Assembly (NCBI RefSeq): GCF_900142535.1
Contig: NZ_FRBE01000001.1
Span: forward strand, 186,001-250,000
Direction: 5' to 3'
Source: Fibrobacter sp. UWEL
Lineage (GTDB): Bacteria; Fibrobacterota; Fibrobacteria; Fibrobacterales; Fibrobacteraceae
DNA: 64,000 nt
This document shows positions 24,232 to 64,000 of this stretch, piece by piece (positions within the stretch are counted from its first letter, which is position 1; every line of letters begins with the position of its first letter). A model generated the notes under the pieces. That model had not been told where the DNA came from. It did no database searches and worked only from the letters and a program-made list of their open reading frames with translations. Both the position numbers and the translations under genes were made by a program.

Positions 24232-25554
24232 TTAATCGTGGATTGAATTCTTTAAGCTTTCAATCAAGCGAGCGAAGCTGGGGTCTGTTTCCATTTCCTT
24301 CTTGATGCTCTTGATGGCGTGAACCACAGTGGAGTGGTCCTTACCGCCAAAGCGGGAACCGATGCTCTGAAGGCTGATGGGGGAGCATTCGCGCATGAGG
24401 TACATGGCTACCTGACGTGCCTTGGAAATTTCCTTGGTGCCGCGGCCCGTTTCAATAAGCTTTGCTTCGGGAACTTCGTAATGCTTGGAGACGGCGTGAA
24501 GTACGGCGTCCAGGCTAACACGGCGACGGAGGGTAGGAGCGATTTCTGCAACCACCTTCTGGGCGATGTTCATGTCAATATCGTGATTCATCAAACTGGA
24601 CTGAAGGGTGAGCTTGATGATGGCGCTTTCCAGGCAGCGGACGTTACTTGCGATGTTTTCTGCAAGATAGTGAAGGATGTCGTCGCTGATTTCCAGATGA
24701 CGTTCCTCGGCCTTCTTGTGGAGAATGGCTTCGCGGGTTTCTACGTCAGGAGGCTGAATATCGACGGTCAGACCCCAGGCGAAACGGCTCACCAGACGGT
24801 CGGAAAGGTTCTTCACTTCTGCTGCAGGTGCGTCGGAGGTGAGAACGATCTGCTTGCCTGCCTGATGCAGTGCATTAAAGATCAGGAAGAATTCATTCTG
24901 GGTTTCGTTCTTGCCGGTCCAGTTCTGAATGTCGTCCACCAGCAGGATATCAACTTCGTTGCGGTAGAAGTCGCTCATCTCGGTGATGCGCTGTTCGCGC
25001 AGGCACTTCATGTACTGCTGGGAAAAGTCTTCGGAAGTCAGGTAGCAAACTCGCTTGGTGGGGTCTTCTTCCAGGATGTAGTTACCGATTGCCTGGAGCA
25101 GGTGAGTCTTGCCAAGTCCAGAAGAACCGTAGATGAACAGCGGGTTGTACTGAGTTCCGTCGGGATTGCGTGCAACTGCGAGAGCTGCGTTGAATGCCAG
25201 CTGGGCCTTGTCGCCGGGCACGAAGTTTTCAAAACGGAAACTGCCGGAAAGGGGAACGCTGGGCTTAACAAAATCCTTGAAGGTATTCTGGGAAGCGGAC
25301 TGCTGGACAGCGGCTTCCTGCTGCTGGAAATCGAATTCCATGGCGCCTTCTTCATGGCTCACTTCCTTCCAGGCGAGACCAATCAGAGCCTTGTAAGCGC
25401 CATAGACGCCTACGTCCAGTCCATTGGGAACAGAAATTACGGCGTGGCCAGTGGTCTGGCTAGAGAGCTTGGTCTGAGCAAAATAGGTCTTATAGACCGT
25501 GTCAGAAAGCATTCCACGGAGATAATTCAAACATCTTTCCCATTCGACGGACAT
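24232..25554 (-). CDS. dnaA: DnaA replication initiator, complete
   Basis: A 440-residue AAA+ protein that binds and opens the replication origin. Domain I is residues 1-65, a short Gln-rich linker spans about 75-100, and the AAA+ domain begins at FRFENFV. Walker A is GSSGLGKT (143-150), Walker B is VDILLVDDIQ (Asp207, Asp208), and the arginine finger is Arg257 in DRLVSRF. Domain IV carries GGKDHSTVVHAIKSI, the DNA-binding signature. All functional parts are present. No dnaN or recF is adjacent, and its promoter region has a long dyad. A second dnaA-type gene begins at 62947. This copy is the better candidate for the working initiator because its key residues are intact. Confidence 0.95.
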   Translation of the reverse strand: MSVEWERCLNYLRGMLSDTVYKTYFAQTKLSSQTTGHAVISVPNGLDVGVYGAYKALIGLAWKEVSHEEGAMEFDFQQQEAAVQQSASQNTFKDFVKPSVPLSGSFRFENFVPGDKAQLAFNAALAVARNPDGTQYNPLFIYGSSGLGKTHLLQAIGNYILEEDPTKRVCYLTSEDFSQQYMKCLREQRITEMSDFYRNEVDILLVDDIQNWTGKNETQNEFFLIFNALHQAGKQIVLTSDAPAAEVKNLSDRLVSRFAWGLTVDIQPPDVETREAILHKKAEERHLEISDDILHYLAENIASNVRCLESAIIKLTLQSSLMNHDIDMNIAQKVVAEIAPTLRRRVSLDAVLHAVSKHYEVPEAKLIETGRGTKEISKARQVAMYLMRECSPISLQSIGSRFGGKDHSTVVHAIKSIKKEMETDPSFARLIESLKNSIHD

Positions 25555-31880: not shown

Positions 31881-33194
31881 ATGTTCAGAAAAGTAATTAA
31901 ACTAGATGCGTTTAAAAATTATGGTATAACAAGTCGAATTCCACAGGAGTGTGCATTTATAGAAACACTTCCTCAATCGGGTCGATTTTTACCTTTATTT
32001 TTTCAAGTTGAAGGTTTTTTGCAATCAGAATCATTAGAAGAATCATTAAAGAAATTTTTAGATAGAGAATGTCCGGAAATAAATGATTTTCTAGATGGCA
32101 AATCTTTTATGATAGATGATTGTTCTTTTGTGGTGAATTCTTATAGAGATGTTTTTCCTTCGGAAATTGCTGCATTGCAAAATTCAAAATTGATGATTCA
32201 AAATCAAAGTCCCTATATTGAAATACTTAATTTCTTTGATGATTGTGATTCGCCTGATTTTATTGAAACAGAAATCCAAAATGATTCTTGTAGAATAACG
32301 AATTATAAAATAGATTGCGATGCCACATCACGGCAGAAAGTATCGTTTATCGTTCATTTTGATTTGAAAATTCAGTTGAAAAAAAGAATACAGAGCTTGC
32401 CGTTAGAAAATTTTTTAGCGCCGATTCCTATTCCAAATAATATTCGTTTTTATAATGTCTTGAAAGTCGTTCTAGAAAATTCTGGACAGTTCTATATCAA
32501 TGAAAAAAAATGCATCAAGTTGAAAAATCGAAATCTAGAAGATTCTGAAAATTCATTTTTATGGGATATTCGTGATTATTTAGGAAAAACATCATTGGTC
32601 GATTATTTCAGTTTATTGCAAAATGAAATTGTGAATTCCTATTGGAAAGATAAATTGAATTTTTTCTCGGAATATAGGAAGGATGGTTTTGATTTATGTG
32701 GAAAACGGCTTTTATTTAGAGAATCATCAAATAATCCGGAATTAAATGCGCTTTATATTGATTTCCCCTTAAGGATGAAATCGCCTTTGTTAAAAGAACG
32801 TCTTGAAAAATTACTAGAAGGACTCGGCGCGGGGCTTGAAAAAATACAGTCGGGGGAAACGTTCCGTTCTCAATCCATAACCCATCCAAATAAAATATGC
32901 AAGGATTTATATATCCGTTTTTTAAAATCAAAAGAAGAGCCTGCATCTCAATTTTTAGATCGCCGGCAGAAATTTATAGACGGAATGAAATCCATCCAGG
33001 ACGGCCTGCAATCGGCCTTGCAATATCTTGAAAAAGAAGTGTGGAACAAGGAAAATGATAATCCAGTAGATCATTTAGGCGAAATTTATTTACAAACCAT
33101 GCGTTTAGATCCGATAGTATTCTCAGAAAGTGAAGTCCCTGCGTTGAAAAACTACGCCTGTCAAATGATCAGCGGGACTCTTCTGGAAATATAG
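31881..33194 (+). CDS. Unknown AT-rich protein, first of a tandem paralogue pair
   Basis: A 437-residue protein I do not recognise. No signal peptide or membrane segment is seen, so it is probably cytoplasmic. It is related to the next gene: INDFLDGKSFMIDDCSFVVNSY matches LNGFLDGNAVSLKKNVFSIQSY, VSFIVHFDLKIQLKK matches VHFQVRFDMDVSLKK, WKDKLNFF matches WRDKLMFW, and LDPIVFSESEVPALKNYA matches LDPLEYAESDNPHIKKLA. Two 60-base lines counted by hand are 27-28 percent G+C, against about 45-52 percent in neighbours. The ATG directly follows a hairpin and lacks a ribosome site. Confidence 0.7.
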   Translation: MFRKVIKLDAFKNYGITSRIPQECAFIETLPQSGRFLPLFFQVEGFLQSESLEESLKKFLDRECPEINDFLDGKSFMIDDCSFVVNSYRDVFPSEIAALQNSKLMIQNQSPYIEILNFFDDCDSPDFIETEIQNDSCRITNYKIDCDATSRQKVSFIVHFDLKIQLKKRIQSLPLENFLAPIPIPNNIRFYNVLKVVLENSGQFYINEKKCIKLKNRNLEDSENSFLWDIRDYLGKTSLVDYFSLLQNEIVNSYWKDKLNFFSEYRKDGFDLCGKRLLFRESSNNPELNALYIDFPLRMKSPLLKERLEKLLEGLGAGLEKIQSGETFRSQSITHPNKICKDLYIRFLKSKEEPASQFLDRRQKFIDGMKSIQDGLQSALQYLEKEVWNKENDNPVDHLGEIYLQTMRLDPIVFSESEVPALKNYACQMISGTLLEI

Positions 33195-33202
33195 AGGATG
33201 AA

Positions 33203-34546
33203 ATGGCTCGATTGTCTTTTAAATACAATGTCTTTAAAAATGAGGGATATAAAAACAGGGAACGGAACTCTACGGCATACATTCGCTTTATGGAGTATCC
33301 TGACGGCACACCGTTTCGTGGAACTTTTGAAGAGTACATGGATCTGGTGGAAAAGAATCCGAAACTCTTTAATTTCCCTCCTCTGGTGATTGAAACCACT
33401 GGATTTCTAGCATGCAGCAATCTCGGTAAAATTTGCAAGTCCCTTGCCATTAGAAAGTGCAGGGATTTAAATGGTTTCCTGGATGGAAATGCAGTTTCGC
33501 TTAAAAAGAATGTCTTTTCCATTCAAAGTTATGCCAGTCTTTTTCCGGATAAGGCTTCTGCCCAACGTTGCTTCAGCCGTATGATGGCAAATCATAGTCC
33601 CTTCATTTGTGTCAAGCCTCTTTTTGACGGAGTCTATCCTCAGACGGTATGCATTCACGAAGACTCTGTCAAGGTTCTTGGATTTACAAAGGAACCTCGC
33701 GACCATGACGACAAGGTGCATTTCCAGGTGCGTTTCGATATGGACGTCTCCTTGAAAAAGATCGTGCCTCCCATGGAAAAGTCTTGCCTTAAGAGTCCCA
33801 TTTGCTGGGAACATCATAAGCAATTCTATAGTCTTGCCAGAACGTTAAATGACCATCTGGATCATTTCTATTTTGTTGAATATCTTGATGCCGTGATGCT
33901 TAAGAACGAATCGGATGAAGAATCGGATCGGACCTTCTGTATGGAATTTCAGAATCAGATGGAAAATTGCCTTGTTGGGGATTACATCCGTACGCTTCAT
34001 CCCTTCCTTGGGTCCAGCGAATGGCGGGATAAACTGATGTTCTGGATCAATCCCGAAAAGTTTGATTTCAAGAAACCTCCCTATCAGTACATTTACTCCG
34101 GTTTCTATAACTTCATTTATGAAGTGCCCCATCCGACTTGCTCCAACAATTTGAGGTTGCACGTCAATTGGCATATGGACAGCCGACTGATTAATAACTT
34201 GAAAACTGCGTACGAGCAAATTGAGAAGAAAACCATGGAAATGATATTCTCCCGTATGCCCTACACGATTCAGGTGGGAGAATTTTATTTCGTAGCTCAA
34301 ATTCGAGATGTGCGGACCATCCAGAAAATGGAAGAACATTGCCTTCATGTTTTTAACGCCATGAAGAACTTCTATGATTACATCCAGCAGGAAATGATTT
34401 CGAGGGGAGAGGATTTCCTCCAGCACATTTCCCGAGTGGTGTTGGAACAGATCAAATTGGATCCTCTTGAATATGCGGAGTCCGATAATCCCCATATCAA
34501 AAAATTAGCTACCGCTTTGGTAAACGGTAGCTATTATGGAGAATAA
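33203..34546 (+). CDS. Unknown protein, second of a tandem paralogue pair
   Basis: A 447-residue protein I do not recognise, homologous to the gene just upstream over most of its length. It starts eight bases after that gene with GAGG as ribosome site, so the two form an operon. The shared blocks are GFLDGN (about residue 95), the HFQVRFDMDVSLKK strand pair (about 175), WRDKLMFW (about 275) and the C-terminal LDPLEYAESDNPHIKKLA. There is no signal peptide or membrane segment. Unlike its partner, its base composition (about 45 percent G+C in one hand-counted line) matches the chromosome. Function unknown; a terminator follows. Confidence 0.72.
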   Translation: MARLSFKYNVFKNEGYKNRERNSTAYIRFMEYPDGTPFRGTFEEYMDLVEKNPKLFNFPPLVIETTGFLACSNLGKICKSLAIRKCRDLNGFLDGNAVSLKKNVFSIQSYASLFPDKASAQRCFSRMMANHSPFICVKPLFDGVYPQTVCIHEDSVKVLGFTKEPRDHDDKVHFQVRFDMDVSLKKIVPPMEKSCLKSPICWEHHKQFYSLARTLNDHLDHFYFVEYLDAVMLKNESDEESDRTFCMEFQNQMENCLVGDYIRTLHPFLGSSEWRDKLMFWINPEKFDFKKPPYQYIYSGFYNFIYEVPHPTCSNNLRLHVNWHMDSRLINNLKTAYEQIEKKTMEMIFSRMPYTIQVGEFYFVAQIRDVRTIQKMEEHCLHVFNAMKNFYDYIQQEMISRGEDFLQHISRVVLEQIKLDPLEYAESDNPHIKKLATALVNGSYYGE

Positions 34547-62110: not shown

Positions 62111-62572
62111 ATGGCTGTAGACGAAGCTACAAAGAAACAAGATCAACTTGAGCTCTACCAGATCGACGAGTCTGCGATCATGCCTTTCTTCGAAAGTCAT
62201 GTGGAAGAGTTGCGCAAGTTCATCGCAGAAAGGGAAGCTGCTAGGCTTTCCCTTCTGGAGCTTCTGAAACAGTACATTCGTTCCCTGAAGCAGCCCTTCA
62301 ATATGCGCCGCTACATGGACGTTCAGTCTACCTACATCCGCCAGACTCTTCAGCAACAGAACGAAGATCGTCAGCAGGCGGTGAGCCACTGGATTCAGGA
62401 AAATGCCAACAAGCATCGTTGCCGTATGATTCAGCTCCAGTGTCTCTATCTGGACCGTATTAAGGATCGTCTTCTTCCCGATATTCAGGCTCTTCTGGAT
62501 CGCAGATTGGATCATCTGCATTCAAAATTGGAACAGATGAAGTCCGAAAACGAATCCAAAAACAATCCGTAG
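62111..62572 (+). CDS. Small helical protein of unknown function
   Basis: A 153-residue, highly charged and probably all-helical protein with no signal peptide. Long amphipathic helices such as HVEELRKFIAEREAARLSLLELLKQ and DRRLDHLHSKLEQMKSENESK suggest coiled coils. I recognise no family. It starts 17 bases after the U32 gene, so it is likely in that operon, and it ends at a hairpin before the dnaA-type gene. Confidence 0.6.
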   Translation: MAVDEATKKQDQLELYQIDESAIMPFFESHVEELRKFIAEREAARLSLLELLKQYIRSLKQPFNMRRYMDVQSTYIRQTLQQQNEDRQQAVSHWIQENANKHRCRMIQLQCLYLDRIKDRLLPDIQALLDRRLDHLHSKLEQMKSENESKNNP

Positions 62573-62946
62573 TCTAACTCCTTATTATTCAATAAGTTAA
62601 GGAAAAAGTGGCGAAATCTGCGTAAAAACGCAGGTTATTTTTTTATAAACTTTTCAGAATAATTCAGCAAACACCGCTTTTCAATACCATTTTTTGTCAA
62701 GGGATTGTTCAAAAAATATCCGTTGATAAGTTGTGAAATTCATAGGGTTTCCGTTTTGATTGTTTCGTGATTAGTTGCGTAACAAACTTGTGTAGTAGGG
62801 GAGAATTGGTGTATATAAGAATTTTATGGCGAAATTCGTCTAAAAACGGCGTTTCCAAAAAAAAATGAAGGTAGGCTGCTTTTTCTCAAAACTCTTTACT
62901 TAACTTTTGTGCCTAAGTTTTTTATATCCTACCCGGTTAATATATC
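62573..62946. other. AT-rich 374-bp spacer upstream of the second dnaA-type gene
   Basis: No gene is seen. A terminator for the upstream operon lies at 62618-62640 (CTGCG-TAAAAA-CGCAG then TTATTTTTTT). GTTGATAAGTT at 62722-62732 is shared with the promoter region of the first dnaA. The remainder is rich in A/T runs. No classical TTATCCACA DnaA box is seen. It could be a regulatory region or part of an origin. Confidence 0.5.
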
Positions 62947-64000
62947 GTGCCCAATACGGTTTCTTTATTAGATCTTGTTTCGTCGCCCTGGCAGTCTGTT
63001 CTTGAACAGATTCGCATCCAGTGCAATGACTACTTCGGCCTGACTATTTTCGATGAAGTTGGTTTCGATGGTGTAGTTGACGGATATGCTTCCCTTACTG
63101 TTCCTAATGAACTTTGTGAAAATTGGGTGAACACCCATTATGGCTCTATTTTACGTAAGGCTTTTTCTTCCGTATATGGATCCCAGTTCAAGGATTACCG
63201 TATTAGACAGGTGGCTCCCTCCCAGTCTGTTCCGGAGATGAAGTTCTCCACGCCCAAGGCCCCCCTTATTCCTGTCGCCCCTCGTGCTGCAGTTAAGGCT
63301 CCCAAGGCCCCTCGTCGTCCGAAGTTGAAGCTGTACGCAAGCTTTACCTTCGAAAACTTTGTGGAAGGAGACTGCAACTCCGTGGCCCTCAAGGCTTGCA
63401 GGACTGTGTCCGAGAATCCGGGCAATCCGGATTTGAACCCGCTTTTCGTCTATGGCGCATCTGGCCTGGGCAAGACTCACTTGCTTCAGTCCATTGCCGT
63501 CAATATTCAGAAGAGTCAGCCGGCGGTCAAGGTTCTGTATTGCGACGCATACGAGTTCCTTCGTGATTCTACCGCTATGGCCAAGGCCCTGAATCTCAAG
63601 GCTGGCAATGTGCGAGATCTTGCAAATGCCTATCAGGAAAAGTACGAAAACTGCGATGTGTTGCTTCTGGATGACGTCCAGCTGCTGGAAAGAGGCCTTG
63701 TATCCCAGGAACGCCTGGCCATTTTGATCCGTCATCTGCGTGCTCAGGGCAAGCAGGTGGTGCTGTCTTGCGACCGTCATCCCTCTAGCTTTACCGGCGT
63801 TGAATCCAAGACGGAAGTGGATGCCAATTATAAGGCTGGCATTCCCAGCATTTCCGCAAAGCTTCTGGCTCCCTTGCAGTCCTGCGTGGCAGTGGGCTTG
63901 GAACAGCCTGATCTTCATACCAGACTTCAGCTGATTCAGGCGAAGTCTGTGAAAATACCCTTTGTCCAGCGGGATCGAGAGGAAATCTGCAGGTTTCTCT
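62947..64000 (+). CDS. Second DnaA-type protein, C-terminal end outside window
   Basis: The first 351 codons of a DnaA paralogue. The frame has a TAA six bases before the GTG at 62947, so this GTG is the earliest start. Residues 1-90 form domain I (WQSVLEQIRIQCNDYFG and SLTVPNELCENWVNTHYG). Residues 95-127 are a Pro/Ala/Lys linker, and the AAA+ domain starts at YASFTFENFV. Walker A is GASGLGKT (170-177) and Walker B is VLLLDDVQLL (Asp242, Asp243). The arginine-finger box, DRLVSRF in the complete DnaA, reads AKLLAPL (304-310), so the finger is lost. About 15 extra residues (from SFTGVESKTE) precede it. Domain IV is beyond the window. Confidence 0.88.
   Translation, partial: MPNTVSLLDLVSSPWQSVLEQIRIQCNDYFGLTIFDEVGFDGVVDGYASLTVPNELCENWVNTHYGSILRKAFSSVYGSQFKDYRIRQVAPSQSVPEMKFSTPKAPLIPVAPRAAVKAPKAPRRPKLKLYASFTFENFVEGDCNSVALKACRTVSENPGNPDLNPLFVYGASGLGKTHLLQSIAVNIQKSQPAVKVLYCDAYEFLRDSTAMAKALNLKAGNVRDLANAYQEKYENCDVLLLDDVQLLERGLVSQERLAILIRHLRAQGKQVVLSCDRHPSSFTGVESKTEVDANYKAGIPSISAKLLAPLQSCVAVGLEQPDLHTRLQLIQAKSVKIPFVQRDREEICRFL

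Follow-up and report, generated by a model that had tools for sequence, protein, structure and literature searches.

A second DnaA subfamily of the Fibrobacterota with derived loss of the arginine finger

The genome of Fibrobacter sp. UWEL encodes two DnaA proteins, and the second of them (DnaA2) is a member of the DnaA family but belongs to a distinct subfamily with a derived loss of the arginine finger. Both genes lie in the stretch of 64,000 nucleotides analysed here (the window), where the preliminary description had placed them: dnaA1 at 24232..25554 on the minus strand and dnaA2 from 62947 on the plus strand, open at the window end. The central claim of that description, an intact DnaA paralogue that has an ATP site and lacks the arginine finger, is supported by the reading frame and the motifs, and the dN/dS values place the paralogue under selection. 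In the reading that we favour, tentatively, DnaA2 may sit on DNA with ATP bound, as a partner of DnaA1 whose filaments it caps, nucleates or restrains. Fibrobacter are important rumen fibre degraders; a search of the open literature, subscription papers aside, returned no earlier description of the Fibrobacterota DnaA pair or of Fibrobacter DnaA paralogues, and nothing on the control of initiation in Fibrobacter.

Gene and Domain Architecture of DnaA2

The dnaA2 gene starts with GTG, covers 62947..64000 of the window on the plus strand (residues 1-351 of 492) and runs on to 64425 (G000:C1:250425). The start codon is backed by the orthologues, whose protein matches begin at residue 2. Once the contig was read past position 64000 (L005:3948-5426), dnaA2 proved to be a single unbroken frame of 492 aa, and thus the disruption beyond the window that had been allowed for is not there. 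The same extension, proposed earlier as a way to read domain IV, recovered that domain, and Pfam found all three domains in the full protein (DnaA_N E 4e-7, Bac_DnaA 1e-39, Bac_DnaA_C 4e-17). Domain I lies at 62983..63168 (+, residues 13-74, PF11638 E 4e-7), Walker A (GASGLGKT) at 63454..63477 (+, residues 170-177) and Walker B (LLLDDVQ) at 63661..63681 (+, residues 239-245). In the alignment both Walker motifs and the sensor-2 Arg are kept in DnaA2 of the window, and the sensor-2 Arg is retained in every member of the genus tabulated. The part inside the window was modelled with AlphaFold (mean pLDDT 78.5); the model shows domain I, well folded at residues 14-88, the AAA+ core and the box-VII helix, and its best matches among solved structures are the DnaA proteins of B. 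subtilis, T. maritima and A. aeolicus.

The only DnaA-domain proteins detected in this genome were the products of dnaA1 and dnaA2. The dnaA1 product, the canonical initiator paralogue (440 aa, with DRLVSRF and GGKDHSTV), reached 468.7 bits against the DnaA equivalog TIGR00362 (cut-off 343.9), whereas DnaA2 reached 297 bits. Neither the Hda model TIGR03420 (55.7 bits for the in-window part, cut-off 194.8) nor the PRK12422 model (125 of 657 bits) was passed by DnaA2. Like canonical DnaA (E. coli, B. subtilis; TIGR00362), DnaA2 has the domain order I-II-III-IV, Walker A and B, sensor 1, sensor 2 and the helix-turn-helix. It differs from canonical DnaA, with which it coexists in full-length form, in the lack of R285, in an insert before box VII, in changes at R399, H434 and T435, and in falling under the equivalog cut-off. 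Hda is also a DnaA-family AAA+ module that acts on DnaA, as is proposed here for DnaA2, but Hda lacks domains I and IV and triggers ATP hydrolysis with its own Arg finger, whereas in DnaA2 both domains are present and, here, the finger is absent. The helicase loaders DnaC and DnaI appear among the lower-ranked fold matches with a related AAA+ fold, but have neither domain I nor domain IV of the DnaA type. DciA, a protein of genomes that lack dnaC/dnaI, is reported for Fibrobacteres (PMC5109545).

Some members of the genus have, just upstream of dnaA2, a gene for a conserved 153-aa protein (62111-62572) with no significant Pfam match. An inverted repeat, CTGCGTAAAAACGCAG, read from the sequence and followed by a T-rich run (62618..62646, +), separates it from dnaA2 and is probably its terminator.

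Replacement of the Arginine Finger

In E. coli, R285 of one DnaA reaches the ATP bound by its neighbour, and the R285A variant leaves low-affinity sites unfilled (PMC6727663, PMC4451416). From this published role, a subunit with an ATP site and without a finger would form the receiving end of a filament and would allow no extension the other way. The preliminary description had reported GASGLGKT, LLLDDVQ, AKLLAPL and an insert, all as we find them; by alignment the insert between sensor 1 and box VII, FTGVESKTEVDANYKAG, is 17 residues long (63790..63840, +). It is disordered in the model, with pLDDT below 50 at residues 286-299. The DRLVSRF of ordinary box VII is replaced by SAKLLAPL (63853..63876, +), in which Pro309 (63871-63873) aligns with the arginine-finger position R285 of E. 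coli, and the box-VII helix is preserved at residues 304-311 in the model.

It had been considered that a finger might appear elsewhere in the protein, but no replacement Arg was seen near box VII. The only Args nearby are R277 (in the sensor-1 'CDR') and R326 ('TR'), and neither counts as a substitute because both sit where ordinary DnaA also has Arg. The insert of the window's DnaA2 has no Arg, and those that occur in some orthologue inserts have no fixed place. None of the 38 species read in the window's genus has R285 in DnaA2, so the loss is not an isolated error, and a new box-VII sequence, LLxxLxSCVAVG, is conserved across the genus.

It is hardly credible that DnaA2 is a decaying duplicate in which the finger was lost by drift, even if DnaA2 evolves faster than the more conserved DnaA1 and has lost its finger repeatedly. 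Between close species the dN/dS of DnaA2 is 0.05-0.09, indicating purifying selection, frames were intact in the loci read, and the conservation of LLxxLxSCVAVG already contradicts decay. The remodelled box VII is itself under selection, since the lowest dN/dS (0.02, closest pair) was found in the part made of box VII and the lid.

Distribution and History of the Pair

The preliminary description had proposed that the conservation of the second gene be checked, and DnaA2 was found throughout the phylum. Two full-length DnaAs were detected by domain search in 51 of the 53 sampled Fibrobacterota genomes, covering 14 families, and when proteins were searched over 168 genomes, 86 of the 89 good Fibrobacterota genomes returned two or more matches (counted by hand). 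The outgroups (Ignavibacteria and relatives, Aquimarina, Treponema, Clostridia and Abditibacteriaceae) had one strong DnaA each, bar one extra fragment. In one bin the protein taken for DnaA1, on a 4.6 kb contig (L065, G020:C198), groups with Bacteroidota DnaA and probably comes from a contaminant contig.

In a tree of 89 proteins DnaA2 forms one clade (SH-aLRT 99), the inner order of which broadly follows that of DnaA1, with the class Fibrobacteria apart from the Chitinispirillia-type families. This parallel branching implies that the split between DnaA1 and DnaA2 predates the last common ancestor of the phylum. The suggestion of a duplication local to the lineage was therefore not borne out by the searches and the tree; a recent duplication within the genus is ruled out by the phylum-wide presence and the DnaA2 clade. 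The shared SGLGKTHLLQ that had been taken as a sign of duplication is an ordinary DnaA motif, as GLGKTHLLQ occurs in T. maritima 2z4r. A tree that joins DnaA1 and DnaA2 is 7.6 log units worse, a difference too small for rejection (AU test p = 0.34), and the pair may have arisen by duplication or by early transfer.

In most outer families DnaA2 keeps R285 (IINRF, LLSRF). When the box-VII columns were left out of the tree, DnaA2 came out with about seven losses of the finger, six of them forced by well-supported branches. DnaA2 without R285 was found in the window's genus (none of 38 species retains it), g7, g2/g4, f2, f5, one f8 genome and one g6 genome, where the cases of f5 and g6 hinge on the alignment. 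The P-loop GKT (Lys-Thr) was present in every DnaA2 read. Judged from this tree, DnaA2 did not start out without the finger but lost it later, within the phylum, and capping cannot be the ancestral function because most families keep R285.

Nor does finger loss need to mean capping, since R285A DnaA of E. coli still initiates on an engineered origin without ATP-DnaA sites, in which all sites bind DnaA-ADP (PMC6727663). By the same result DnaA2 could be competent to initiate in its own right, with no need of ATP-driven filaments, for instance on strong oriC boxes, DnaA1 being used under other conditions. The outer-family orthologues, which exceed the TIGR00362 cut-off (489.8 and 364.3 bits), would agree with this, the higher score being that of a normal DnaA. 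We regard it nevertheless as rather improbable: DnaA2 of the window's genus stays under that cut-off, and it is the more conserved DnaA1 that in the outer families occupies the usual initiator site, flanked by rnpA/yidC-like genes on one side and dnaN/recF-like genes on the other (assigned by their size, order and conservation). The neighbours of dnaA2 are lineage-specific, and the gene does not travel with dnaA1 or oriC.

DNA Contacts and the dnaA2 Promoter

Whether a GxxDH-type signature remains in domain IV had been left to be checked; the box is there, but in the altered form NRDYATV in place of the DH[ST]TV of DnaA initiators. In the window's genus R399 is changed to Gln, H434 to Tyr and T435 to Ala or Ser, and the His434 to Tyr change extends to DnaA2 of most families. 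The same change occurs in the only strong DnaA of several Treponema and Clostridia genomes, so that it need not mean loss of DNA binding and is not a mark private to DnaA2; the pattern scan behind this comparison reached GRDY[ST]TVIH forms only, and DnaA2-like proteins may exist elsewhere.

The promoter region of dnaA2 carries a DnaA-box-like element, GTTGATAAGTTGTG (62722..62735, +), the complement of TTATCAAC, which was found by conservation. It is invariant bar one position in nine species, against a mean column identity of 64%, and belongs to an almost invariant block, TTGTCAA...GTTGATAA[GC]TTGTG (nine species). The upstream regions of outer-family dnaA2 genes often carry TGTGGATAA instead of the block. 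The 14-mer, GTTGATAASTTGTG, has two copies in the window's genome, of which the one before dnaA2 falls within window 62698-62735; two copies were counted in five of eight genomes, never in reversed form, and they often have an inverted TTATCAACA/TTATCCACA partner. In two species the second copy (G000:C15:49956; G097:C17:37153) precedes a conserved TPR gene at a distance of 16-37 kb from gidB. The 14-mer is possibly a DnaA-control or titration site, and control of dnaA2 by DnaA is plausible.

With such sites at hand, DnaA2 might be a stand-alone DNA-bound regulator, a transcription or titration factor that combines DnaA-box binding with ATP sensing outside DnaA1 filaments. This reading, which we consider unlikely though worth keeping in view, would account for the element in the promoter of dnaA2 and its other copy before the TPR gene, and for a protein that lost the box-VII finger while keeping domain IV with altered contacts at R399, H434 and T435. 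It sits badly, however, with an ATP site that was never lost and with the conservation of domain I, the part for DnaA-DnaA and helicase contact, which in genera g2 and g4 is the only domain I left.

Position of the Putative Origin

The only single-contig genome has one skew minimum, with the skew sampled coarsely, and it lies beside gidB-parA-parB with TTATCCACA and TTATCAACA boxes; this minimum and its DnaA boxes mark the putative oriC (L263 7551-10000, G144:C1 about 1.414-1.424 Mb). Both dnaA genes of that genome are far off, 0.6-1 Mb from the putative oriC, so that dnaA position is no origin marker in that family. The dnaA2 promoter region was rejected as oriC, since the window shows no lasting skew switch and, in genome G101, the skew keeps one sign across both dnaA genes; the second 14-mer copy is probably not oriC either, given its distance of 16-37 kb from gidB in G000 and G097 and a skew minimum nearer gidB in G097. 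Pairs of TGTGGATAA were sought as an oriC marker in g1 and none were found. Local GC drops to 0.365 at window 32001-34000 against a background of 0.49.

Two initiators that differ in their recognition residues might serve two origins, or DnaA2 a former second replicon, but the one skew minimum of the single-contig genome, at the coarse sampling used, and the position of dnaA2 about 1 Mb from it make this very improbable. Chlamydiales also carry a pair of dnaA genes on one chromosome, both away from the skew minimum (Waddlia, PMC2878342), a precedent from a different phylum that is likened here on gene number and position.

A Proposed Partnership between DnaA1 and DnaA2

In genera g2 and g4 (loci L106, L108, L110 and L308-L319) the DnaA1-type protein has only 44-103 residues ahead of the P-loop, and domain I was absent in frame and in the available upstream frames at 12 of 12 loci. 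That an initiator should be without domain I is already unusual. At each of the 12 loci the DnaA2-type protein does carry this domain, by a profile trained partly on three of these DnaA2 sequences; Pfam's own model matches it weakly, and these lineages evolve fast. Residue-by-residue alignment of three genomes showed that DnaA1 keeps the Arg at 285 (SRL) and DnaA2 is without the finger, with Walker B of DnaA2 altered in two of the three. What is missing from each protein is thus retained in the other. This is explained most simply if the two belong to the same assembly, and such complementary loss in two genera suggests that DnaA1 and DnaA2 work together.

We therefore return to the partner reading as the best, if tentative, explanation. 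DnaA2 would work with DnaA1 and not in its stead, binding DNA by a domain IV of its own in which the recognition residues are altered, and ATP as predicted from its motifs, and its domain I would be able to join the orisome. In the window's genus it would accept R285 of DnaA1 on its own ATP and have no finger to donate, so that a mixed assembly would end or stay short at DnaA2, which may act as a cap, a nucleation platform or a brake. In families with R285, DnaA2 may simply co-assemble, the finger-less form being a later step. The ATP binding, the physical contact between DnaA1 and DnaA2, the capping and the role at oriC or promoters are inferred; a protein that caps or regulates DnaA1 would agree with the residues that DnaA2 has lost and kept.

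The textbook view of bacterial initiation has a single self-assembling protein, DnaA, whereas eukaryotic initiators are hetero-oligomeric. A bolder and, at present, doubtful extension would be a two-subunit initiator across the phylum, with mixed orisomes in which DnaA1 donates the fingers and a finger-less, domain-I-bearing DnaA2 as end subunit sets filament length; the inactive subunits of ORC and of clamp loaders would then be comparable in logic. A conserved second DnaA that kept its ATP site and repeatedly dropped its finger would be a natural experiment on the parts that each subunit needs and, if the two-subunit reading is true, DnaA2 could reveal that a divided initiator evolved in bacteria as well.
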